A stretch of 64,000 bases of DNA from Tautonia plasticadhaerens (lineage in GTDB: Bacteria; Planctomycetota; Planctomycetia; Isosphaerales; Isosphaeraceae): positions 8,308,001-8,372,000 of the forward strand of contig NZ_CP036426.1 of the NCBI RefSeq assembly GCF_007752535.1, read 5' to 3'. Both the position numbers and the translations under genes were made by a program. This document shows positions 10,853 to 23,894 of the stretch, piece by piece. Positions within the stretch are counted from its first letter, which is position 1. Each line of letters starts with the position of its first letter. The notes below the pieces were generated by a model, which was not told the origin of the DNA, made no database searches, and saw only the letters and a program-made list of their open reading frames with translations.

Positions 10853-13708
10853 ATGACTATCGCCCCCCCGGGGCCGGGCCGAGCCCCGGCGGCGGGACTG
10901 CCCGGGTCGATCCGATCGGTACTGGCGAGGGTCGGCCGGAGGCTCGACGCGGCGGCGGCGATGCGGGGCCTGGGCCTGACGCTCGGCGTCTCGGCGGCGA
11001 TCGCGGCGGCGGCGATGGCGGTCGACCTGCTCCGGCCGATACCGACCCCGGTGCGATGGGCCGGCTGGCTGGCCTGGGTCGGGGTGTCGTCGACGCTCCT
11101 GATCCGGGGGGTGCTGGGGCCGCTGCTCCGTCGGCACCGGCCCGACGCGCTGGCGGCCGTCGCCGGGAGGGGCCTCCCCGATCGGGGGGCGACGCTGACG
11201 GCGGCCGTCTCCCTGGCCGGCGCGGGGGGGCGGGCCCACGGGTCGCCCGAGCTGATCGCCGCGCTGGTCGACCGGGCGGTCGAGGAGGCCGGCTCGATCG
11301 AGCCGGGCCGGGCCGTCCCGCTGGCCCGGGCCGCCCGTCGGCTGGCGATCGGCCTGGCGGCCGCCGGGGTCGTGGCCCTGCCGGCGATCGTCGCGCCCGA
11401 CCCGTTCGCCGCGCTCTCGGGTCGATTCCTCGCCCCCTGGTCCGACCCCGGCTCGGCCGGCCTGCTGGCGATCGCGGTCGAGCCGGGGGACGCCGTCGTC
11501 GCCCGGGGGGGGCCGCTCGCCGTCTCGGCCTCGGTCCGGGCCCGGTCCCGGCTCGCCGGCCCGCCGCCCGAGACGGCCCTGCTGCAATGGACCGGCCCCG
11601 ACGGCGCGTCCCACGCCCTGGAACTCGGCCCCGGCAAAGGGGAGCCCCGGCGGGACGATGCCCGGGGCTTCGCCCTCACCCTGCCCTCGATCGAGGGGCC
11701 GATCACGTACCGGGTGGTTGCCGGGTCGGCCAGGAGCCGCCCCTACCGGGTCCGGGTGGTCGATCCCCCCCTCGTCTCCTCCCACCGATGGACGATCGCC
11801 CCGCCCCCGTACACAGGCCGGGACGCGGAGGAAGTCGTCGGCCCGGCCGGGGCGACCGCCTGGCAGGACAGCCGGGTCACGATCGTCGCCTCGACGGACC
11901 GCCCCGCCCGTCGCGTCGTCCTCTCCTGGCCGGCCGAGCCCGCCTCGGGGGATCGACACGAGGGCAAATCCATCGACTTCGAGCCCTCCGCCGATGGTCG
12001 GGCCTGGACGGTTGAGGTCTCGGCGACGGCGTCCGGCCCCTACGAGCTGGTCGCGGAGGACGAGCACGGGCTGGTCGGGCGCCCCGGCCGATCGGGGAGG
12101 CTGGAGGTGGTCGTCGACGCCCCCCCTGCCGTCGCCCTGGCCGACGGCGAGGAGGCGGCCGGCCCCGGGGACCGGCTGGCGCTCCCCGTCGCCTCCCGGG
12201 ACGACGTGGCGGTCTGCTCGGCCGAGCTGCACGTCGCCGTCCTCCGGGCCGACGCCGGGCCCGGCTCCCTTCCCGAGCCCCTCGGCGAGCCGATCCCCCT
12301 GGTCCTCGACGGGCTGGGGACCCCGGCGGCCCGGGGGGTGGCCGGGCTGGACCTCGCCCCCCTGGGCCTGGGGGACGGCGACGCCCTCTCGGTCCGGGTC
12401 CGGGTGCTGGACAACCGCCCGCCCCCCCGGGGGCCGAACGAGGGCTGGTCGGCGCCGATTCCGGTGGCGATCGTGGCCGACGTGCAGCAATTCGACGCCG
12501 ATCGGCTCGAAGCCCGGCTCGGGCCGATCCGGGAGGAGCTGCAATCGCTCGCCCGGCAGGCCGCCGAGAACCAGCGCAACCTCCCCCCCCTCCGGGCCGA
12601 CGCCGAGGCCGCACGCCGGGACGACGACGCCTGGTCCGAGCGGAGCGCCGACGACCTCGACTGCCTGGCCGAGGCCGCCCGGGGGCTGGTCGACCGCCTG
12701 CAACTGCTCTCCCGGGCCCTGGAGGCGGACCCCACGCTCGGCCCGCTCGCCGACCCCGTCCGGCAGGCCGCTGAGGCCGAGGCCGACGACGCCCGGCAGG
12801 CGCTCGACGACGCCCGACGCGACGAGGAGGATCCCGACGCCCGCCTCGACGACCTCCGACGCGCCGAGGCGGAACTGGCCGGCGCCTCGCGTCGGCTCGA
12901 CGACCTGAATCGGCGGCTCAATAGCCTCGCCCGGGCCGCCGCCGCCCGACCCGAGCTGGCCGACCTCGCCGGCCGGGAAGGGGAGCTGGCCGACCAGGCC
13001 CGGGCACTCGCCGACGGAGCCGAGGCCGAGGACCAAGCCGAGGACCAGGACGACGACGTTCCTCCGCCCCCGGCCGAACCCCCGGGCGAGGCCAAGCCGA
13101 CGCCGCCGATCGACCCGGAGGCCCTTCGGCGGCTCCGGGAATCCCAGGACCAGCTCTCCCGGGCCCTGGACGAGCTCTTGAGGCGGGCCCCCGCACTCCG
13201 GGACGACGACGCCGCCGCCGAGGCCCGGGCCGACGCCGAGGCCGCCCGCCGGGACCTCGACCGGGCCGCCGCCGGGCCCGACCCCGGCGACCCCTCACGG
13301 TCTCCCTCCGAAGCCGCCCGGGAGGCCGCCGAGGCCATGCGTCGGGCCGCCGAGCAGCTCCGACGGGCCTCCGGGTCCGCCGACCCCTCCTCCCGGGCCG
13401 AGCGGCTCGCCCGGCTCCTGGCCGACCAGGCCGGCGAGCCCTCCTCCCCCTCCGACGGCGACCCCTCCGCCTCCCCCCCTCGATCGATCCCCGCCGGCCC
13501 CTCCGACCCGGCCGCCGCGTTCGGCCTCCGCTCCGAACGCTCCTGGGGAGACCTGCCCGGGCACCTCCGCACCGAGCTGCTCCAGTCCTCCCCCGACCGC
13601 TACCGCCCCGACTACGCCGCCCTCATCCGCCTCTACTTCCGGGAGATCGCCCGAGGCGCCTCCGACCCGGGCCCGGCCCCGGATCCGGGGCCGGGCGGGG
13701 CCCCCTGA
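10853..13708 (+). CDS. Large membrane-anchored coiled-coil protein (DUF4175-like)
   Basis: 951 residues from ATG 10853. This start is chosen because upstream in-frame codons lack the coding pattern and a promoter lies between. The N-terminus has two close membrane segments (GLTLGVSAAIAAAAMAVDLL and the WLAWVGVSSTLLI region) and a third near residue 160 (LAIGLAAAGVVALPAIV). Next come Ig-like extracytoplasmic stretches (for example ITYRVVAGSARSRPYRVRVVDP), then a long Ala/Arg/Asp-rich coiled coil (residues about 550-850). The order fits DUF4175-type planctomycete proteins. The 3' end overlaps the convergent kinase gene by 76 bp. The role is probably envelope-related, by inference. Confidence 0.8.
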   Translation: MTIAPPGPGRAPAAGLPGSIRSVLARVGRRLDAAAAMRGLGLTLGVSAAIAAAAMAVDLLRPIPTPVRWAGWLAWVGVSSTLLIRGVLGPLLRRHRPDALAAVAGRGLPDRGATLTAAVSLAGAGGRAHGSPELIAALVDRAVEEAGSIEPGRAVPLARAARRLAIGLAAAGVVALPAIVAPDPFAALSGRFLAPWSDPGSAGLLAIAVEPGDAVVARGGPLAVSASVRARSRLAGPPPETALLQWTGPDGASHALELGPGKGEPRRDDARGFALTLPSIEGPITYRVVAGSARSRPYRVRVVDPPLVSSHRWTIAPPPYTGRDAEEVVGPAGATAWQDSRVTIVASTDRPARRVVLSWPAEPASGDRHEGKSIDFEPSADGRAWTVEVSATASGPYELVAEDEHGLVGRPGRSGRLEVVVDAPPAVALADGEEAAGPGDRLALPVASRDDVAVCSAELHVAVLRADAGPGSLPEPLGEPIPLVLDGLGTPAARGVAGLDLAPLGLGDGDALSVRVRVLDNRPPPRGPNEGWSAPIPVAIVADVQQFDADRLEARLGPIREELQSLARQAAENQRNLPPLRADAEAARRDDDAWSERSADDLDCLAEAARGLVDRLQLLSRALEADPTLGPLADPVRQAAEAEADDARQALDDARRDEEDPDARLDDLRRAEAELAGASRRLDDLNRRLNSLARAAAARPELADLAGREGELADQARALADGAEAEDQAEDQDDDVPPPPAEPPGEAKPTPPIDPEALRRLRESQDQLSRALDELLRRAPALRDDDAAAEARADAEAARRDLDRAAAGPDPGDPSRSPSEAAREAAEAMRRAAEQLRRASGSADPSSRAERLARLLADQAGEPSSPSDGDPSASPPRSIPAGPSDPAAAFGLRSERSWGDLPGHLRTELLQSSPDRYRPDYAALIRLYFREIARGASDPGPAPDPGPGGAP

Positions 13709-16700
13709 GGCCCGGCCGGGGCCGTCGGGGCCGACGACGCAACATCCGATACCATCCCCCCCGGGGGCTGGTCGGGCGACCCCGACTCGGTGGGCTCCGG
13801 GGGCCCGGCCGAGGGGTCGAGGGGAAAGGCGTCCCGGAGCTTGACCGTGCCGTCGTCGCTGACCGAGACGAGGCGGAGGCCATCGGGGCTGAAGGCGATC
13901 CGGCGGATCCAGCCGTCGTGGTCCTTCAGGGCCAGCAGCTCCAGGCCGCTGGACGGGTCCCAGAGGCGGATCGTCCGGCCGGACCCGGCCGAGGCGAGCC
14001 GTCGGCCGTCGGGGCTGAAGCAGACGGACTGCACCGCGCTGGTGTGACCGGTCAACACCCGGAGGGGCCGGCCCGTCTCCGCCTCCCAGAGCCGCACGGT
14101 CGTGTCGGCGCCGGCCGAGGCGATCGTCCGCCCGTCGGGGGACCAGGAGACGCCGAGGACCGAGCCGAGGTGGCCGTCGAGGGTGCGCCGCACGTCGCCG
14201 GTCGAGGCGTCGAGGATCGCGACCGTCTGGTTGTTGGAGGCCGAGGCGATCGACCGGCCGTCGGGGCTGAAGTCCAGGTCGAGGACGCCGAGGTCCTGGC
14301 CCTCGTAGGTGAACCGGGCCGCCCCGGCCTCCAGGTCCCAGAGCGTCAGCCGGCCGTCGTTGGAGGCCGAGGCGACGGACCGGCCATCGGGGCTGAAGGC
14401 GAGGTCCTTGATCGTGTCGTCGTGGGTGCCGAGCACCCGGAGCAAGGCGCCGGTCCCGGCGTCCCGGAGCGTGACCCGGTGATCGGGGTCCCCGACGGCC
14501 AGGGTCAGGCCGTCGGGGCTGAAGGCGAGGCTGTAGATGCTCCACCCCAGGCGGGGGTCGCCGGGGCCGACCGTCGCGAATTCCAGCCGCCGGTCGGCGT
14601 CCGGCAGGCCCCAGACGAGGACGGTGGCGTCCTCGAAGCCGGCGGCGACCCGGAGGCCGTCCCGGGAGAAGTCGAGGGCGAAGGGGCGGTCGAAGAAGGA
14701 CGCAGGGCCGGGTTCGATCAGAGTCCGGGGCTGGGAGGAGCGCTCCGGGTCCCAGAGCCGCACGGTCGTGTCGGCGCCGGCCGAGGCGATCGTCCGCCCG
14801 TCGGGGGAGTAGGCCAGGGCGTAGATGGAGTCGGTATGCCCCTTGAGCGACCGCAGGGGGCGGCCGGACTCGGCGTCCCAGAGGGTCACCTCGTGGTGGA
14901 TGCCGGCCGAGGCCAGGGTCGAGCCGTCGGGGGCGTAGGCCAGGGCGGCCACGTCGGGGCAATCGGGCCGCAGGCGGTCCAGCTCGCGCCGCCCGACCGG
15001 GTCCCAGAGCCGCACCGTCCCGTCGGCGCCGGCCGAGGCCAGGGTCAGGCCGTCGGGGGAATAGACGAGGTCCCGGATCGCGCCGACGTGGGCCGGGAGC
15101 AGGATCGCCTCGCCCTCGCCTTCGCCCTCGCCCTCGCTGCTCCCCTCGGCCGGCGCCCGGGCGTCGCGGAACGCGATCAGGCCGTCGAAGCCGGCGGAGG
15201 CCAGGGTCAGGCCGTCGGGGCTGAACTCCACGTCGGCGACCGGCCCCGCGTGGGCGTTGGGTAGGTGGCGGAGCAATCGGCCGTCGCGGGCGTCCCAGAT
15301 GAGGATCGAGTGCGCGGCGGTCGCGGCGGCCAGCATCAGGCCGTCGGGGCTGAAGGCCAAGTCGAGCACCGCGACGGGGGGGCCCGGGGGCTCGGCTGGC
15401 TGCTCGACCGAGAACCGCCGACGGCCCGAGTCGACCTCGAAGGCGGCGACGCCCAGATCCGGGCCCTGGGCGGCCAGGGTCAGGCCGTCGGGGCTGAAGG
15501 CCAGGGCCGAGACGCCCAGGCTCAGGGGGCCGGAGAACCGGGGGTCGTCCGACCCGGGCAGCTCCCCCCGGACGGCCCCCGTCGCCGGGTCCCTGAGCAC
15601 CACCCGGCCGCCCCACTGGATCGAGGCGAGGGTCAGGCCGTCGGGGCTGAAGGCGACCCGGCTGACCTCCCGGGAGTGGTCGCGGAAGGTCGCCCGCTCC
15701 TGCCGGGAGAGCCGATGGAGGTAGTGCCACTCCCAGCCGAGCAGGTCCAGGCCCTCCGCCTGGCGCCGGGCCTGTTCGAGCAGCCCCTCGAGCCGGCCGA
15801 CGTCGTTGGCGTCCCAGGCGGCCAGGGCGGTGGCGATCCGGGCGGCGTAGAGGTTGCGCCTCAGCTCGTCCCGGGTCCGGGCGAGCCGGAGGCTGGCCCG
15901 GTCGGCGTCCCGCCGGGCCACCGCCTCGTTGGCGGCGGCCCGCAGCGCCGCCCGCTGGCCGAGGTCGGCGGCCCGGGCCGCGTCCCTCGCCTCCCGGGCC
16001 CTGCGGTCGAGCCGGACGGCCAGGGTGGTCGACACCAGGGCGATCGCCACCAGCAGCCCCAGCACGGCGCCCCCCAGCACCGCCTGCTCCGGGTTCCTCC
16101 GGCACCAGCGGGCCAGCCGCTCGATCGGCCCGATCGGCCTCGCCTCGATCGGCCGGTCGTCCAGGAACCGGCCGAGATCCTCGGCCATCGCCGAGGCGGT
16201 CTGGTACCGCGCCGCCGGGTCCTTCTCGGTCGCCTTGAGGACGATCGTCTCCAGGTCCCGGGGGATCCCCGGGTCGATCGACCTGGGCCGGGGCGGGTCC
16301 TGGGACCGGATCCGGTCGATCAGCTCCAGCCGGTCGACGGCCGGGAAGGCCGGGCGGAGGGTGACCAGCTCGTAGAGGGTCAGCCCCAGCGCGTAGACGT
16401 CGGCCCGGGCGTCCCCCTCGCCCCGGAAGCGTTCGGGGGCCATGTAGCGGGTGGTGCCCAGCAGGTCGCCGGTGCCGGTGAGGGTGAGGTCCTCCTCGGC
16501 GAGGGCCAGGCCGAAGTCGGTGATCCAGGCGATGCCCTCGCCGTCGAGCAGCAGGTTGCTCGGCTTGATGTCGCGGTGGATCACCCCCCGGCCGTGGGCG
16601 TAGGCCAGCCCCTGGGCCACCTGCCGGCCGATCCGGGCGACCGTGCGGAACCACTCCGGGCGCCGGCCCGGGTCGATGTCCGGGATCTCCCCCGCCCCCG

Positions 16701-16848
16701 CCCCCGCCCCCGCCCCGGGCCCCGGGGCGGGGGCGTCCTCCGAGGAGCCGCCCCCGGACGGGTCCCCCTCCCGCTCGCCCGGGTCGTCGAGGATCAGGGT
16801 CTCGTCGTCCCAGGACGAATCGGCCTCGGACCACGCGGGCATCGGCAC
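13633..16848 (-). CDS. WD40-repeat Ser/Thr protein kinase, C-terminal part (catalytic C-lobe, membrane segment, WD40 propeller)
   Basis: This frame holds the catalytic half of a kinase (HRDIKPSN, DFGLALAEE, RYMAPERF, DVYALGLTLYEL), a membrane segment (AVLGGAVLGLLVAIALVS), a coiled linker and about 14 WD40 units of the form FSPDGLTLASAG...VRLWD. It lacks the kinase N-lobe, which is encoded one frame over at 16794-17570. The two frames join if one base is added in the 10-nt C tract of the coding strand (plus-strand 16912-16921) or in the neighbouring 8-nt run. The frame is open well upstream of the GTG at 16848, so that start is arbitrary. The intact product would be a transmembrane kinase of about 1,300 residues with its propeller outside. 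The 3' end overlaps the convergent gene by 76 bp. Confidence 0.85.
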   Translation of the reverse strand: MPMPAWSEADSSWDDETLILDDPGEREGDPSGGGSSEDAPAPGPGAGAGAGAGEIPDIDPGRRPEWFRTVARIGRQVAQGLAYAHGRGVIHRDIKPSNLLLDGEGIAWITDFGLALAEEDLTLTGTGDLLGTTRYMAPERFRGEGDARADVYALGLTLYELVTLRPAFPAVDRLELIDRIRSQDPPRPRSIDPGIPRDLETIVLKATEKDPAARYQTASAMAEDLGRFLDDRPIEARPIGPIERLARWCRRNPEQAVLGGAVLGLLVAIALVSTTLAVRLDRRAREARDAARAADLGQRAALRAAANEAVARRDADRASLRLARTRDELRRNLYAARIATALAAWDANDVGRLEGLLEQARRQAEGLDLLGWEWHYLHRLSRQERATFRDHSREVSRVAFSPDGLTLASIQWGGRVVLRDPATGAVRGELPGSDDPRFSGPLSLGVSALAFSPDGLTLAAQGPDLGVAAFEVDSGRRRFSVEQPAEPPGPPVAVLDLAFSPDGLMLAAATAAHSILIWDARDGRLLRHLPNAHAGPVADVEFSPDGLTLASAGFDGLIAFRDARAPAEGSSEGEGEGEGEAILLPAHVGAIRDLVYSPDGLTLASAGADGTVRLWDPVGRRELDRLRPDCPDVAALAYAPDGSTLASAGIHHEVTLWDAESGRPLRSLKGHTDSIYALAYSPDGRTIASAGADTTVRLWDPERSSQPRTLIEPGPASFFDRPFALDFSRDGLRVAAGFEDATVLVWGLPDADRRLEFATVGPGDPRLGWSIYSLAFSPDGLTLAVGDPDHRVTLRDAGTGALLRVLGTHDDTIKDLAFSPDGRSVASASNDGRLTLWDLEAGAARFTYEGQDLGVLDLDFSPDGRSIASASNNQTVAILDASTGDVRRTLDGHLGSVLGVSWSPDGRTIASAGADTTVRLWEAETGRPLRVLTGHTSAVQSVCFSPDGRRLASAGSGRTIRLWDPSSGLELLALKDHDGWIRRIAFSPDGLRLVSVSDDGTVKLRDAFPLDPSAGPPEPTESGSPDQPPGGMVSDVASSAPTAPAGPQGAPPGPGSGAGPGSEAPRAISRK

Positions 16849-17570
16849 CAGCGACGGCGAGGCGGCGTCCGGCTCCGGCCCGATCGGCCGATCGGGCTCC
16901 CCCCCCGACCCGGGGGGGGGGTCGACGCGACTCCGGGGCCGTCCCCCCGAGGGGGGACGGCCCCGGGGCCCCCCGGGGTCGTGACGCCGAGCCTCCCGGA
17001 GCGGTCCCGGCGCGACCGCAGGCCCTCGATCACCCTGTCCAGGCCCCGGCCGGGGATGAACTGCATGGCGTAGTAGGCCACCTCGCCGTCCCGGCCGACC
17101 TCGAACACCGGCACGATGTTCGAGTGGTGCAGCCGGGCCGCCGAGCGCGCCTCGCGTCGGAACCGCTTGAGCACCTTCGAGTCGAGGGCGACGTGCCGGG
17201 GCAGGATCTTCAGGGCCACCCGACGGCCGAGCGACAGCTGCTCCGCCTCATAGACCACCCCCATCCCCCCCCGCCCGATCTCCCGGAGCAGCCGGTAGTC
17301 CCCCAGGTGCCGGGGCCCGGGAGGCTCTGGGTGCGGCCTCCCCTCGGGGGGCACCGGGCCCTCGGCGTCGGCGTCGGCCTCGGCCTCGGATCCGGACCGG
17401 GCCCGGCTCAGGTCGTCGATCGCCCGGAGCAGGTTCGGCAACCCCCCGGCGAGGCCGGGGTACTCGGAGGAGAGTTCCTCGGCGTCGGGCCGCTCCCCAC
17501 GCCGGAGCCGGCCGAGGATCGCGTCGACCAGCGCCTCGATGGGGTCGCGATCCTGGGTCTCGTCGGCCAT
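16794..17570 (-). CDS. WD40-repeat Ser/Thr protein kinase, N-terminal part (N-lobe), frameshifted from the rest
   Basis: Starts at ATG 17570 (MADETQDRDPIEALVDAIL). After an acidic leader comes the kinase N-lobe: YRLLREIGRGGMGVVYEAE (Gly loop), VALKILP with the catalytic Lys, and FIPGRGLDRVIEGLRSRR. The frame then runs into Pro/Gly/Arg-rich sequence and stops at 16794 without the HRD or DFG motifs, which continue in the frame of 13633-16848. Planctomycete kinases of this type have a low-complexity insert between lobes, and the frame break lies inside that insert. Either the gene is out of frame in this genome copy or one base is missing from the assembly. It is divergent from the sigma factor at 17840. 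Confidence 0.8.
   Translation of the reverse strand: MADETQDRDPIEALVDAILGRLRRGERPDAEELSSEYPGLAGGLPNLLRAIDDLSRARSGSEAEADADAEGPVPPEGRPHPEPPGPRHLGDYRLLREIGRGGMGVVYEAEQLSLGRRVALKILPRHVALDSKVLKRFRREARSAARLHHSNIVPVFEVGRDGEVAYYAMQFIPGRGLDRVIEGLRSRRDRSGRLGVTTPGGPGAVPPRGDGPGVASTPPPGRGGSPIGRSGRSRTPPRRRWCRCPRGPRPIRPGTTRP
16912..16921. repeat. G10 homopolymer at the kinase frame break
   Basis: Ten consecutive G on the plus strand (C10 in the kinase coding strand), with an 8-nt C run at 16899-16906 close by. Adding one base at either run joins the N-lobe frame to the catalytic frame. Confidence 0.8.
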
Positions 17571-17646
17571 GCGGATCCGGCGCCTCGGGGCCTGGGCTCG
17601 GGCGTCCCGCCCCCTCCCATCCCGGAGGGCGAGACGCCACCATGCC

Positions 17647-17675
17647 AGGATAAGGCGCGGGGCCGATCCCCGCCA
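17647..17675 (-). promoter_or_regulatory. Possible promoter of the split Ser/Thr kinase gene
   Basis: Minus strand TGGCGG (17670-17675), a 17-nt spacer and TATCCT (17647-17652), 77 nt before ATG 17570. Confidence 0.4.
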
Positions 17676-17839
17676 GGGGCCGAGCCGCCCCCTACCGGCC
17701 CCTGGCCGGGGCGCCCGGGGCCGGCGGCGTCCGGCCCGATCGTCCGACCATCGCCCCGGCCGCACCGGGCCGTTGAACCGGGACGGCCCGACGGCGACTC
17801 CCCTGCTGTGGGCCATGCTCTGCGGAAGGGGGAGGACCC

Positions 17840-18418
17840 GTGAGCCGATCGACCGGAGAGGTGCTCGACGACTGGCTCGTCCTGGCCGCCCAGGGGGGCG
17901 AGGCCGACGCCTTCGAGGCCCTGGCCGAGCGCTGGCACCGGCGGCTGGTGGCCCACGCCTACCGCCGCCTCTCCCACGCCGAGGGGGCCGCCGAGGCCGC
18001 CCAGGAGGCCTGGCTGGCGATCGTCCGGGGGATCCCCTCGCTGGACGACCCGGCCCGGTTCCCCTCCTGGGCCTACCGGATCGTCGACCGCAAGGCCGTC
18101 GACTGGCTCCGGAGGCGCCGCCGGCAGCGGGCGATGGACGACCGGATCGGGCGGGACCCCCGCCTCCGCTCCCAGGCGATCGACCCCGGGCCCGACGGCC
18201 TCCCGGCCGAGCCCGAGGGGCTCGACCCCGTCGACCGCCTCCGCCTGGCGCTCCGACAACTGCCTGGGGAGCAGCAAGCGCTGCTCGCCCTCTACTACAC
18301 CGAGGGCCGACCCGTCCGGCAGATCGCCGAGACGCTCGGCATCCCGGAGGGGACGGTCAAGTCCCGCCTCTTCCACGCGAGGCAGCACCTGAAATCCCGA
18401 CTGGAGGACCGGCCATGA
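17840..18418 (+). CDS. ECF-type RNA polymerase sigma factor
   Basis: 192 residues from GTG 17840, with AAGGGGGAGG just upstream. Region 2 is at residues about 20-90 (FEALAERWHRRLVAHAYRRL, then ARFPSWAYRIVDRKAVDWLR), a Pro/Gly linker follows, and region 4 is at about 130-190 (LRQLPGEQQALLALYY ... IAETLGIPEGTVKSRLFHAR, helix-turn-helix). It redirects RNA polymerase to a specific promoter set. The next gene overlaps its stop by the ATGA arrangement and encodes a small membrane protein, probably its regulator. The kinase at 13633-17570 diverges from it, which suggests, but does not prove, a joint signalling locus. Confidence 0.93.
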   Translation: MSRSTGEVLDDWLVLAAQGGEADAFEALAERWHRRLVAHAYRRLSHAEGAAEAAQEAWLAIVRGIPSLDDPARFPSWAYRIVDRKAVDWLRRRRRQRAMDDRIGRDPRLRSQAIDPGPDGLPAEPEGLDPVDRLRLALRQLPGEQQALLALYYTEGRPVRQIAETLGIPEGTVKSRLFHARQHLKSRLEDRP

Positions 18419-18825
18419 CCACCGACGGCAAGGAACTCGACGCCCTGATCCGGGAGGCCCTCTCCCGGGAGGAGGCGGCCCTGTTCGACCGCCTCGGCCC
18501 CCCCTCGCTGCCCGACCTGCTCACCGAGACCTTCCGGGGCCGATTCCGCTGGATCAACCTCTTCGGCGGCCTGCTGAGCTTCGTCTTCTTCGGCCTGGCC
18601 GTCTCCTGCGCCGTCATGATCTTCCGGACCGACGACGTGCCGAGGCTCTTCCGCTGGGGACTCGGCTTCTCCTTCTCCATCTCGGCCGTCTTGGGCCTGA
18701 AGCTCTGGTTCTGGATGGAGATGCAGCGGCACGCCACCAGCCGCGAGGTCAAGCGGGTCGAGCTGGCCGTGGCCCACCTGGCGGCCGAGCTGCGGGCGGG
18801 CCGCGCCCCCGGGCCGGACTCCTGA
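18415..18825 (+). CDS. Small two-span membrane protein paired with the sigma factor (DUF6768-like), possible anti-sigma factor
   Basis: 136 residues. ATG 18415 overlaps the sigma factor stop (ATGA), so the two are translationally coupled. The N-terminus is a soluble helical part (LDALIREALSREEAALFDRL), followed by two membrane segments (WINLFGGLLSFVFFGLAVSC and the FSFSISAVLGLKLWFWMEM region) and a C-terminal amphipathic helix (VKRVELAVAHLAAELR). I believe this matches the DUF6768 type found beside planctomycete ECF sigma factors. It could hold the sigma factor at the membrane, but it has no zinc-binding anti-sigma motif, so that role is inference from position only. Confidence 0.8.
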   Translation: MTTDGKELDALIREALSREEAALFDRLGPPSLPDLLTETFRGRFRWINLFGGLLSFVFFGLAVSCAVMIFRTDDVPRLFRWGLGFSFSISAVLGLKLWFWMEMQRHATSREVKRVELAVAHLAAELRAGRAPGPDS

Positions 18826-18856
18826 GGAGGCCGGCGACCGGAGGCGGCGGACGCGA

Positions 18857-18862
18857 TACACT
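18857..18862 (+). promoter_or_regulatory. Possible -10 element upstream of the terpenoid-cyclase-fold gene
   Basis: TACACT followed by GGACCC, the same 12-mer as at 10752. No clear -35 stands upstream. It is the only signal I see in the 311-bp gap 18826-19136. Confidence 0.3.
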
Positions 18863-19136
18863 GGACCCGCCGGGACGCCGGATGGACCCGGCGGGCCGGA
18901 CGCCGGTCCGGCCCCCGGCCGAGTCGTCGGGGGGTGTCCTCCCGCGACCGGGAGGCCCCGACCTCCGATGACGCCCGCCACGGCCCCGGGACGCTCGCCG
19001 GCTCGGGGACCGGGGTGTCGGCGGGTCCGTCCCCCGGCGCGTCCCCCCTCCCGGGCCCGATTCGCCGCCCCCGGGTCCCGGAGACGACCACGGAGCCAGG
19101 CGGCGTGAGCCCCCCCTTCCCCCTCGCACCCTCGCC

Positions 19137-20216
19137 ATGAATCGAGCCCGCCCGCTCCCCGTCGCGTCCTGCATGCTGGCCGCCCTGCTGCTCCCGGCCC
19201 CCTGCCGGGCGATCGCCCAGGACCTGCCCGAGGCGCCCCGGGCCCCCTTCTCCGGCGCCGAGACCGACGCCGCCGCCCGACGCGCCCTCGACTTCCTGGC
19301 CGGGGCCCAGCATGCCGACGGTTCCTGGGAATCCGGCGGCTTCGGCAAGGCGACCTCCGTCACCTCGCTGGCGGTGATGGGCTTCCTCGCCTGCGGCCAC
19401 GTCCCCGGGGAGCCCGGCCCGTACCGTGAGGCGATCGCCCGGGGCGTCGACTACGTGCTCGACAACCAGCGGACCGACGGCATGCTCGTCTCCAACACCA
19501 GCCACGGGCCGATGTACTGCCACGGCATCAGCACCCTGATGCTGGCCGAGGTCGTGGGCATGACGCCGGACCCGGGCCTGGCCGACCGCTGCCGGGTCGC
19601 GCTGGCGAGGGCCGTCGAGCTGATCGTCCGGGCCCAGCGGATGCCCAAGTCCGACGACCACGCCGGCGGCTGGCGGTATCAGCCCGGCAGCTACGACAGC
19701 GACCTGAGCGTCTCGGGCTGGCAGGTCGTCGCGCTGCGGGCCGCCCGGGACGCGGGCTGCTCGGTCCCCTCCGAGGCGATCGACGCGGCGATCGACTACG
19801 TCCGGCGCTGCGCCGAGCCCCGGTCCGGCGGCTTCAGCTACCAGGCCGGCCGGGGGGGGCCGAACAACCCGAGGACCGGCACCGGCATCCTCTCCCTGGA
19901 ACTCTGCGGCGAGCACAACTCGCCCGAGGCCCTCGCCGGCGCCGAGTACCTGATGACGCACCCCCCGAGCTGGGGCTCCGACTACTTCTTCTACGAGGCC
20001 TACTACTGCCCGCAGGCCCTCTTCCAGCTCGGCGACGCCTACTTCCTGCCCTACTACTCGCGGATCGTCCCCATCCTGCTCGACCGGCAGGAGGCCGACG
20101 GATCGTGGTACTCCCCCACCGGCAACGACCGCACCGGGGGCCGCAACTACTGCACGGCGATGGGGGTGCTGGCCCTGGCCGTCGAGTACCGCTACCTGCC
20201 GATCTACCAGCGTTGA
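19137..20216 (+). CDS. Secreted prenyltransferase/squalene-oxidase repeat protein
   Basis: 359 residues with a signal peptide (residues 1 to about 27). The mature protein is an alpha/alpha toroid of repeated units, each with a bulky Q-x-x-DGSW-type motif: AQHADGSWESGG, NQRTDGMLVSN and RQEADGSWYSP, and GGFSYQAGRGGPN. These repeats are those of squalene-hopene cyclase and prenyltransferase beta chains. The catalytic DxDD motif of the cyclases is absent, so it is unlikely to be a hopene cyclase. Planctomycetes carry many such exported proteins of unknown job. ATG 19137 starts the signal peptide directly. Confidence 0.85.
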   Translation: MNRARPLPVASCMLAALLLPAPCRAIAQDLPEAPRAPFSGAETDAAARRALDFLAGAQHADGSWESGGFGKATSVTSLAVMGFLACGHVPGEPGPYREAIARGVDYVLDNQRTDGMLVSNTSHGPMYCHGISTLMLAEVVGMTPDPGLADRCRVALARAVELIVRAQRMPKSDDHAGGWRYQPGSYDSDLSVSGWQVVALRAARDAGCSVPSEAIDAAIDYVRRCAEPRSGGFSYQAGRGGPNNPRTGTGILSLELCGEHNSPEALAGAEYLMTHPPSWGSDYFFYEAYYCPQALFQLGDAYFLPYYSRIVPILLDRQEADGSWYSPTGNDRTGGRNYCTAMGVLALAVEYRYLPIYQR

Positions 20217-20275
20217 GCCGCCCGCCGCCGGGCGAGCCCGGCGGCGGCGGGGGACGGTCCGGGCCGGGTCGGCCC

Positions 20276-22120
20276 TCAGCGGATGACCCGGCAGCCCGAC
20301 GGCCCGGCCCGGAGGCGATCGGCTGCCTCGTCCGAGAGGGCCGTCTCGCTGGCCCGGAGCCACTTCAGGTGGGGCAGTTGCAGCAGGTCGTCGACGCAGG
20401 CGTCGGTGATCCGGGTCCGATCCACGCTGAGTTCCTCGAGCAGGGCGAGGCCCCGGAGCCGGCGGATCCCGGCGTCGCCGATCTCGGTGTCGGAGAGGTT
20501 GAGGAACCGAAGGCGGGGGGACGAGGCCAGGGCGTCGAGCCCCTCGTCGGTCACGAGGGTCCCCGCCAGGTCCAGGTGCTTCAGACCGTCCGGGGGGCCG
20601 AGGCGGGAGAGGCCCCGGTCGGTCAGCGCGTTGTAGCAGACGATCAGCAGCTTCAGACGGGGCAGCCGGGACAGCTCGGCGAGCTGGTCGTCGGTCAGCC
20701 CGGTCTTGCCCAGGTGCAGGGAACTGACCCCCCCGAGCCTGGCGATCTCCTCGATCCGGGCGTCGGCGATCGGGCCCGCCCCGTAGAGCGAGAGGGATCG
20801 CAGCGTGACCGGACCCATCGGCAGCGTCTCGGCCGAGTGGATCGTCGGCGGGAAGACGTCGTTGAAGTCGACCGAGCCGCTCTCCGAGAGGATCCATCCG
20901 GCCATCCGGAGGTCGGGGGCGTCGCGGGTGGCCGGGGGCGGTGACCCGCCCCTCGACGTGAGCGGCTGGGGCCCGAACAGCCGGAGGGCGAGCACCAGGA
21001 CGGCCGCCGCCAGCAGCAGGGTCGCCGCCGAGACGACCAGGCTCAGCCGGGTCCAGTGCCGGGGCCCGTCCCAGTCCCGGCACTGGCGAAGCTCCCGGGC
21101 CAGCTCCCAGGCCGAGGCGTGCCGGTCGGCCGGGTTCTTGGAGAGGGCCTTGCGGCAGACGGCCTCCAGTCGGGGGGAGATCGCCGGGGCGAGGCGGCTC
21201 GGCGAGGGCGGCTCCGCATGGATCACCTGCTCGCGGTACTCGGCCGACAATCGGCCCGGGAAGGGGCGCTCGCCGGTGATCATCTCGTAGAGGATCACCC
21301 CGAAGGAGAAGACGTCGGTGCGGCGGTCCACCAGCCGGGACTTGCCGCTGGCCTGCTCGGGGCTCATGTACTGGGGGGAACCCTCGACGCAGGCCAGGTC
21401 GCTGCGGTCGGTCGCCCGCAGGGCCAGGCCGAAGTCGGCCACGTAGGCCGTGTTCTTCGAATCGATCAGGATGTTCGAGGGCTTCAGGTCCCGGTGGATC
21501 AGCCCGCGCTCATGGGCGTGGGCCAGGGCGTCGGCCACTTCCCGGGCGATCGTCATCGCCTCCCCGATCGGCAGCTTCCGCAGGGCCATCCGCCGGGCGA
21601 GGCTGCCGCCGTCGATGTATTTGGAGACGATGAAGATCGTCCGGTCGTCGATCCGGCCGCAGTCGTAGACCGGGACGATGTTCGGGTGGTCGAGCTGGGC
21701 GACCTTGCGGCCCTCCTCCAGGAGGTGGTCGGTCCCCCGGTCCCGGGTCCGCCGGGCGACCTTGATCGCCACCTGGCGATGCAGCTCCCGGTCGTAGGCC
21801 AGCATGACGATGCCGAACCCCCCCCGGCCGATCTCCCGCTCCAGGCAGTAGCGGCCGGCGATGACGCGGTCGATCCAGACGGGGATCGACGGGTCGGGGG
21901 CCGAATCGGGCTGCAGCCGGATCGTCGGGTCGTCCTCGGGGGCCTCCCAGTCGGCCGTCGGCGACGGCAGGATGGGGGTCGGGGCCAGCTCGGTGGCCGG
22001 CTCGGTGGCATGCCCCTCGTCCTTCGGCCGGCGACGGACGCCGGCCGGGGTGGGACGGCCGGCGTCCCTCGGGTCGGGGCGGGCGTCCTTCGGCGGCCTG
22101 TTGGTGGTGTCGATCGACAT
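20276..22120 (-). CDS. Transmembrane Ser/Thr protein kinase with C-terminal leucine-rich repeats
   Basis: 614 residues from ATG 22120, which has GAAGGGAG 10 nt upstream. Residues about 1-80 are disordered. The kinase domain (about 85-345) is complete: EIGRGGFGIVMLAYD, VAIKVARR, HRDLKPSNILID, VADFGLALRA, SPQYMSPEQASG, DVFSFGVILYEMITGERPFP. A membrane helix follows (LSLVVSAATLLLAAAVLVLA, about residue 360). The outside part holds about seven LRR units with phrases such as LKHLDLAGTLVTDEGLDAL and LRFLNLSDTEIGDAGIRRL. The layout suggests an external sensor and an internal kinase. Substrates are unknown. Confidence 0.92.
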   Translation of the reverse strand: MSIDTTNRPPKDARPDPRDAGRPTPAGVRRRPKDEGHATEPATELAPTPILPSPTADWEAPEDDPTIRLQPDSAPDPSIPVWIDRVIAGRYCLEREIGRGGFGIVMLAYDRELHRQVAIKVARRTRDRGTDHLLEEGRKVAQLDHPNIVPVYDCGRIDDRTIFIVSKYIDGGSLARRMALRKLPIGEAMTIAREVADALAHAHERGLIHRDLKPSNILIDSKNTAYVADFGLALRATDRSDLACVEGSPQYMSPEQASGKSRLVDRRTDVFSFGVILYEMITGERPFPGRLSAEYREQVIHAEPPSPSRLAPAISPRLEAVCRKALSKNPADRHASAWELARELRQCRDWDGPRHWTRLSLVVSAATLLLAAAVLVLALRLFGPQPLTSRGGSPPPATRDAPDLRMAGWILSESGSVDFNDVFPPTIHSAETLPMGPVTLRSLSLYGAGPIADARIEEIARLGGVSSLHLGKTGLTDDQLAELSRLPRLKLLIVCYNALTDRGLSRLGPPDGLKHLDLAGTLVTDEGLDALASSPRLRFLNLSDTEIGDAGIRRLRGLALLEELSVDRTRITDACVDDLLQLPHLKWLRASETALSDEAADRLRAGPSGCRVIR

Positions 22121-22191
22121 CGGACGGGCACTCCCTTCGACAAGAGGAGCCGCGCTCGCGCCGGGCCGTCTCGGCCGACCCGGCCCGAGCC

Positions 22192-23637
22192 TCACGCGCC
22201 GGTTCCGTTGAGTCCACCGCGATCCAGCCCACCGCGATCACGCCCCCCGACGGCCCCGGCCATCTCGGCCGGGGGCGGGGGATCGACCCGGTGGTCGCAC
22301 TCCAGATCCCAGTCCATCAGCAGCGTCCCGCCCCGGCGGGCCACGTCGAGCCACAGGTTGCAGTCGTAGCCGACGGCGTCCCCGGCCGACCGGGCCGGGC
22401 CGGCCAGGAAGACCTCGCGGCGGACCAGGGCGCACCCCAGCCCGGCACCCCCGATCGCCTCCAGCCCGGAGCCGCCCCTCAGGTGGATCAGCTCCCCCGT
22501 ATCCAGGTCCCGGTACCGCCAGGCCACCCGGTGGTCCGGCACGACTCGGGACCGGTAGCTCGCCGACACGCCGTCGACGTCCGGGCCCATCCGGTCGAGC
22601 AGCCGGTCGAGCGCCTCGGGGGGCGGGATCACGTCGTCCTCCAAACACCAGACCAGGTCCGTCCGGACCAGCTGGCCGATCCGGTTCCAGATCGCCCCGA
22701 CCCGGTCGTTCAGCTCCCGGCCGTGGCGCCGGCCCCCCTGCTGGCCGAGGACCGGCCTCGCGTCGGCCAGCTCCCGGGCCGACAGGCCCGGCACCGCCGG
22801 CCTCGGGTCCCGGACGTAGGAGACCCCGGCATACCCCTCCTGCCCCATCAGCCAGTGCCTCAGCCGGCGGCCGACGGCGACCGACCCGGAATTGTCGTAG
22901 AACAGGACGTGCAACTGCGACGCCGGGAACGTCTGCCGTGAGACGGCGTCGAGCAGCGCGTCGATCAGGGGCTCGCGCCCCGACCAGGGGATCGCCAGCG
23001 TCACCAGGTCGGTCGGGTCGATCGTCCATCGCCAGTCGTCCCGCCGGGGGGACCGCTGGTTGGCCCGGCAGACGCCCGAGTCGTGCCGGAAATAGTAGTA
23101 GTCGACCGGCGCGGGGACCATCCGCCAGCCGTGGTCCCGCAGCCGACGCCAGAGCGCCCAGTCGTCGTGCGGGACCAGGCCGTCCCGGTCGGGCTCGAAG
23201 ACCGGCCAGCCGCCAACCTGCCGCAGCGCGTCGGACCGGATCAGCGCCGGCACCCCGGAGATGTTCGTCCTCCCCAGCAGGGCGGGCTCGAACGGGTGGT
23301 CCCACCGGCCCTGGGACTCGCCGCAGAACCGCAGGCGGGGGTAGGAGGCGGCCGCCCGGCAATCGGTCTCGATCGTGGCGAGCAGGGCCTCCAGGTAGTC
23401 CGGGGGCACCATGTCGTCGTCGTCGAGGAAGCAGAGGTAGGGGAGGTCCCCCAGCACCCTCAGCCCGACGTTCCTCGCCGGGTTGCCGCTCAGGCCGCAG
23501 CCGACCGCAGCCCGGAGGTACTCGACCCCGGGATAGCGCCGGGCGACCCGCTCGGCCGAGGGGTCGTCGCCGTCGCCGTCGTCGACCACGAGGATCCGAT
23601 CGGGCCGGTGGGTCTGCATCATCAGCGAGCCGAGCAT
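22192..23637 (-). CDS. Tandem-domain family 2-like glycosyltransferase, frameshifted near its N-terminus
   Basis: The open part carries a GT-A domain (ILVVDDGDGDDPSAERVA, YLCFLDDDDMVPPDYL, HDDWALWRRL), then a second GT-like domain (LVTLAIPWSGREPLIDALLD, FYDNSGS, WCLEDDVIPPPEALDRLL). The first strand of domain one (GAVIPTRNRAEWLPHM) is encoded in frame upstream of ATG 23637, so that ATG is not the true start. The frame is open up to a stop at 23818-23820. The likely start is ATG 23894, one frame over; adding one base to the G10 tract (plus C10, 23799-23808) joins both into about 568 residues. It would transfer sugars from nucleotide donors to an unknown acceptor. Confidence 0.85.
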   Translation of the reverse strand: MLGSLMMQTHRPDRILVVDDGDGDDPSAERVARRYPGVEYLRAAVGCGLSGNPARNVGLRVLGDLPYLCFLDDDDMVPPDYLEALLATIETDCRAAASYPRLRFCGESQGRWDHPFEPALLGRTNISGVPALIRSDALRQVGGWPVFEPDRDGLVPHDDWALWRRLRDHGWRMVPAPVDYYYFRHDSGVCRANQRSPRRDDWRWTIDPTDLVTLAIPWSGREPLIDALLDAVSRQTFPASQLHVLFYDNSGSVAVGRRLRHWLMGQEGYAGVSYVRDPRPAVPGLSARELADARPVLGQQGGRRHGRELNDRVGAIWNRIGQLVRTDLVWCLEDDVIPPPEALDRLLDRMGPDVDGVSASYRSRVVPDHRVAWRYRDLDTGELIHLRGGSGLEAIGGAGLGCALVRREVFLAGPARSAGDAVGYDCNLWLDVARRGGTLLMDWDLECDHRVDPPPPAEMAGAVGGRDRGGLDRGGLNGTGA

Positions 23638-23894
23638 GTGCGGCAGCCATTCGGCCCGGTTCCGGGTCGGGATGACCGCGCCGACCCGGCGCGGGAGCGT
23701 CCCCCTGGCGTACCACGTCCCCGGCCCCGACGGCCCGCCCTCGGCGGCACCGCCGCCGAGCGGTTCCGAGGTGCCGTAGAGCGATCGGGACGCCTTCGCC
23801 CCCCCCCCGAGCCGGACTCAGCCGACGACTTCGAGTCGCCGTATCGGCCGGGGGAAACGGAGCGATCGCCATAAGAAGCGGGGGAGCTGGACAT
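23622..23894 (-). CDS. N-terminal fragment of the frameshifted glycosyltransferase
   Basis: ATG 23894 begins MSSSPASYGDRSVSPGRYGD, followed by a Ser/Gly-rich stretch that reads into the G10 tract. Past the tract this frame turns Arg/Pro-rich with atypical codons, whereas the +1-base frame continues as AKASRSLYGTSEPLGGG and leads straight into the GT-A domain. This fragment is therefore probably the true N-terminus only as far as the tract. No clear ribosome binding site precedes it. Confidence 0.55.
   Translation of the reverse strand: MSSSPASYGDRSVSPGRYGDSKSSAESGSGGGRRRPDRSTAPRNRSAAVPPRAGRRGRGRGTPGGRSRAGSARSSRPGTGPNGCRTCSAR
23799..23808. repeat. C10 homopolymer at the glycosyltransferase frame break
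   Basis: Ten consecutive C on the plus strand (G10 in the coding strand). One more base would fuse the N-terminal frame with the glycosyltransferase frame. Same length and same missing-base phase as the tract at 16912-16921. Confidence 0.8.

Follow-up and report, generated by a model that had tools for sequence, protein, structure and literature searches.

Single-base frameshifts at two runs of ten G/C in the Tautonia plasticadhaerens assembly are probably one-base undercalls in the consensus

In the assembled genome of Tautonia plasticadhaerens, a Ser/Thr kinase gene and a glycosyltransferase gene are each broken by a single-base frameshift at a run of ten G/C, and both frameshifts are very probably artefacts of the assembled consensus that result from one-base undercalling of long G/C runs. 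By this account, true runs of 11 G/C would have been written as 10 in the consensus, from which, and not from the cells, the missing base would be absent. The real genes would be an ordinary intact Ser/Thr kinase with WD40 repeats and an ordinary family-2 glycosyltransferase, each of which would hold its run by chance within a proline- or glycine-rich, poorly conserved stretch of a window in which the G+C content is 73%.

The window, i.e., the whole 64,000-nucleotide stretch of DNA that was analysed (G000:C1:8308001-8372000), belongs to a genome of 9.395 Mb in six contigs, the first of which measures 8.67 Mb. It contains just two runs of ten G/C and none that are longer: G10 at 16912-16921 and C10 at 23799-23808, as written on the plus strand. 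Both genes lie on the minus strand, where the kinase tract reads C10 and that of the glycosyltransferase G10, and three-frame reading gives one open frame for each gene if its tract has 11 (or 8) bases. The features of the kinase gene are as follows.

16912-16921, minus strand: kinase tract, read as C10 in the coding direction and as G10 on the plus strand; one further base would bring both halves into the same frame
16794-17570, minus strand: assembled N-terminal part of the Ser/Thr kinase, which ends after 258 codons, the final ones out of frame; N-lobe of PF00069 (profile positions 1-90)
13633-16911, minus strand: rest of the kinase, read in the shifted frame, with the C-lobe of PF00069 (profile positions 100-259), a transmembrane-like stretch and WD40 repeats
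16899-16921, no strand assigned: C8 facing G10 over 5 bases, a hairpin-forming inverted repeat that adjoins the kinase tract

The gene starts at the ATG at 17570, and Pfam recognises a PF00069 kinase and WD40 repeats, with the kinase domain split at the tract, which falls in a poorly conserved insert between the two lobes. Dense G/C palindromes that fold as hairpins (the C8-G10 repeat and a 15-pair arm) occupy positions 16899-17000 beside the kinase tract, and a 121-base stretch at the tract that includes the C8-G10 repeat has a fold z of -2.1; this hairpin may have posed an extra difficulty for calling the run. The features of the glycosyltransferase gene are these.

23799-23808, minus strand: glycosyltransferase tract, near the 5' end of the gene and one base short of frame; G10 in the coding direction, C10 on the plus strand
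23622-23894, minus strand: 5' reading from the ATG at 23894 (MSSSPASYGD...), which as assembled meets a stop after 90 codons
22192-23796, minus strand: shifted-frame body of the glycosyltransferase (PF00535), with 73% identity to each of the intact proteins L131 and L132

Here the tract lies in a variable, poorly conserved N-terminus. The body, which Pfam assigns to the family-2 glycosyltransferases (PF00535, glycosyltransferase 2), has its first in-frame ATG, GTG or TTG at 23637, within the catalytic domain, and is free of decay when set against both intact orthologues; a scan of genome contigs with this glycosyltransferase returned distant matches only. The preliminary description of this DNA had reported two equal G/C10 tracts in the same off phase, each one base short, in a kinase and a glycosyltransferase, and the frames, the Pfam matches and the open orthologues bear that out.

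Among relatives of the same genus, the kinase is a single open frame in three genomes (G001-G003) and the glycosyltransferase in two (G002 and G003), in the same neighbourhood; intact kinase orthologues are found at L119-L121 and L130-L132. The tracts themselves are absent from these orthologues (the kinase in G001-G003, the glycosyltransferase in G002 and G003), so that neither tract is conserved in the relatives. At the syntenic place in G001 (L130:8535-8855), residues 306-412 of the glycosyltransferase are all that can be recognised, and the gene appears to have been lost or to have decayed there. Two relatives, both draft genomes, also carry frameshifts at long runs of their own, at C13 in a histidine kinase of G001 (L163:11531-11543) and at C10 in a repeat protein of G003 (L152:9983-9992), which suggests that some change in run length may be real. 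Long runs across which the frame could be called were few in the relatives. In the genome of G001, the longest G runs reach 20 bases (contigs C42, C54 and C61; L159, L160 and L165), far above those of the other same-genus genomes searched.

Neither the length nor the spacing of the two window tracts is out of the ordinary for this genome. Of 112 G/C runs of at least 10 bases genome-wide, 94 are exactly 10, so that two tracts of equal length are to be expected, and among the 83 runs listed, 11 lie no more than 6.9 kb from another, which makes the spacing of the window tracts ordinary as well. One mark of poly-G/C contingency loci is a mononucleotide G/C tract, some 8 bases long at least, within or ahead of the gene, and both sites have 10. 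Such loci are also expected to hold long tracts in excess over composition, and no such excess was found in 660 kb of unselected sequence, where 6 runs of exactly 10 were observed against 6.2-8.0 expected from order-2 and order-5 Markov models. In the window, runs of 8 are fewer than a dinucleotide shuffle would lead one to expect.

The frequency with which the reading frame shifts across a run was assessed in a sample of about 2 Mb of the genome, consisting of 67 regions around runs of at least 10 plus the 660 kb of unselected sequence; the sample is enriched for runs of at least 10, which leaves the fraction shifted unaffected. Frame was called from codon usage on each side of the run in tight windows, which were used in place of wider, offset windows that raised the background to ~8% through gene junctions. 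The proportion of runs with a shift across them was ~1.5% for lengths of 4-7 (mostly gene junctions), 2.9% for 8, 4.1% for 9, 13.5% for 10 and 33% for 11. By the automatic call, 9 of 48 coding runs of at least 10 were shifted, the other 39 callable tracts being in frame, as compared to 276 of 18,688 at lengths of 4-7 (Fisher p = 3.8e-8, with gene junctions in both groups). Three runs of 10 that had been taken as frameshifts (L041, L072 and L083) were dropped as gene junctions when read by eye, as were five runs of 8 and several calls made with the offset windows only; conversely, the window glycosyltransferase, a lipoprotein and a thymidylate kinase, all left open by the automatic call, were added by eye. 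After this reading, which was not blind, frameshifts attributable to the run numbered none at length 8, two of 49 at length 9 and nine at lengths of at least 10. In ten of the 11 broken genes one base is missing (two-sided p = 0.012; 8 of 9, p = 0.039, when the two window genes are left aside), a bias that is drawn from a small number of genes (11 in about 2 Mb); the sole exception is a DUF1214 gene. Both features to be expected of undercalling, a frequency that rises with run length and a bias toward one missing base, were thus found. The preliminary description had proposed that long G/C runs be counted across the genome and examined for an excess in coding, off-frame positions: the off-frame excess at long runs stands, whereas runs of at least 10 occur at chance frequency.

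The broken genes are functionally unrelated to one another. Besides the kinase and the family-2 glycosyltransferase of the window, they comprise the following nine, the first seven of which have runs of 9-11.

L075:7263-7273: NUDIX gene
L021:10001-10011: DUF1214 gene
L060:10683-10693: bpX3 gene
L080:10001-10010: repeat surface protein
L018:18326-18335: lipoprotein
L046:6336-6344: GT4 glycosyltransferase
L076:14344-14352: methyltransferase
L053:10001-10010 (G000:C1:2800238-2800247): thymidylate kinase gene tmk, C10 directly after ATG AGC ACT, off frame
L039:10001-10012 (G000:C1:1407427): ilvB, C12, an IlvB-type acetolactate synthase split into two matches that score 255.5 and 421.6 bits

No thymidylate kinase match other than tmk occurs in the genome; the gene is thus present in single copy, and its assembled sequence offers no in-frame ATG, GTG or TTG ahead of the P-loop. 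Its orthologue in G001 starts MSTTPPPIAGRPGRF, and with one more C the gene here would read MSTPPPPEAGRPGTF, which supports the start codon. Thymidylate kinase is presumed to be essential, and a cell that lacks it is not expected to live. Because the only copy is left with no in-frame start ahead of its P-loop, the assembled sequence is hard to accept as that of a living cell, and no cause of their own has to be sought for the like breaks in the two window genes. An indispensable gene is thus found among those broken, its essentiality being a matter of general knowledge. As for ilvB, each of G001-G003 has one intact copy above the family cut-off, at ~693-700 bits, and the present genome has a full-length acetolactate synthase paralogue that scores 442.9 bits, short of that cut-off, and could cover for it.

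Undercalling accounts for the dependence on run length, the direction of the breaks, their spread over unrelated genes and the state of tmk, and the two window tracts share a length and a phase because the one-base-short bias is genome-wide. The preliminary description had preferred a base-calling bias as the simpler view, and the dependence on length, the ten of 11 genes that lack one base and the inclusion of tmk and ilvB lend it support. Long-read assemblies are known to contain indels at homopolymers, most of them false deletions (PMC12007338), and an earlier planctomycete genome from the same research field was assembled from PacBio reads with Illumina polishing (PMC5177795); we infer that a long-read chemistry lies behind the present assembly. 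The breaks seen here are like those long-read errors in that one-base losses split intact genes, deletions exceed insertions and the chance of error rises with run length, and unlike them in that G/C runs of 9 or more are affected, in a very G+C-rich genome whose chemistry of record is inferred (PMC12007338). In the GeneTack survey, singleton frameshifts are expected to be sequencing errors or indel mutations, and phase variation and programmed frameshifts cluster (PMC3711429). The present cases resemble those singletons in being frameshifted genes that lack frameshifted homologues; they differ in that several of them occur in one genome, with a G/C run of 9 or more as their common context.

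Other readings have to be weighed against consensus undercalling. We consider it very unlikely that the tracts in the kinase and the glycosyltransferase act as genuine contingency loci even though other breaks in the assembly are errors, or that off-frame G/C runs are tolerated by way of transcriptional slippage. Also very unlikely, in our view, is that the sequenced strain has truly fixed the one-base deletions, so that both genes would be recent pseudogenes that arose through ordinary slippage. Long G/C runs do mutate quickly in vivo, and the glycosyltransferase seems dispensable within the genus, given the fragment in G001; yet ordinary slippage predicts both gains and losses, as opposed to the ten to one found, the rest of both genes is without decay, and tmk is left unexplained.

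A shade less probable still is the idea that the two genes are phase-variable contingency loci, in which slipped-strand mispairing at G/C10 would switch the kinase and the glycosyltransferase, the sequenced culture having been caught in the off phase at both. Glycosyltransferases are typical targets of phase variation, and the frames past both tracts are undamaged. Were the tracts of 10 bases real, they would represent, to our knowledge, the first such switching in planctomycetes; a search of the papers available for phase variation in planctomycete glycosyltransferases returned no report and a single match, on Helicobacter. In Campylobacter, G/C tracts of such length are a classical substrate (PMC8355987), and the likeness to the poly-G/C loci of that genus extends to coding G/C tracts of 8-11 bases, a glycosyltransferase gene and a one-base loss that gives the off phase. 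In contrast to those loci, in the one assembly examined here the tracts are not over-represented, neither tract nor locus is conserved and housekeeping genes are hit (PMC8355987). The phase variation raised in the preliminary description is accordingly not borne out: the tracts occur at chance frequency, they sit in variable stretches and are missing from the orthologues of three same-genus genomes, most coding tracts of at least 10 are in frame and the broken ones are nearly all one base short, and the same break is found in tmk and ilvB, when surface or otherwise variable, non-essential targets would be expected. Least probable of all is that the 10-base tracts are real and that a slipping RNA polymerase or ribosome returns part of the product to frame, off-frame G/C runs being tolerated, that of tmk included: homopolymer slippage is a known form of recoding and would explain how a cell with an off-frame tmk can live, but the cases described are mostly at A or T runs (PMC3711429), short coding G/C runs are kept in frame here and the tracts are not conserved.

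With consensus undercalling as the preferred explanation, the biological import of the two window frameshifts is probably none, and their value lies in the caution that they offer about the assembly. In what is apparently the type-strain assembly of Tautonia plasticadhaerens, at least 11 genes in a sample of 2 Mb are broken by a single base at a long G/C run, including tmk and ilvB. Where pseudogenes, absent pathways or phase variation are claimed on the strength of such runs, support at the level of reads is needed.
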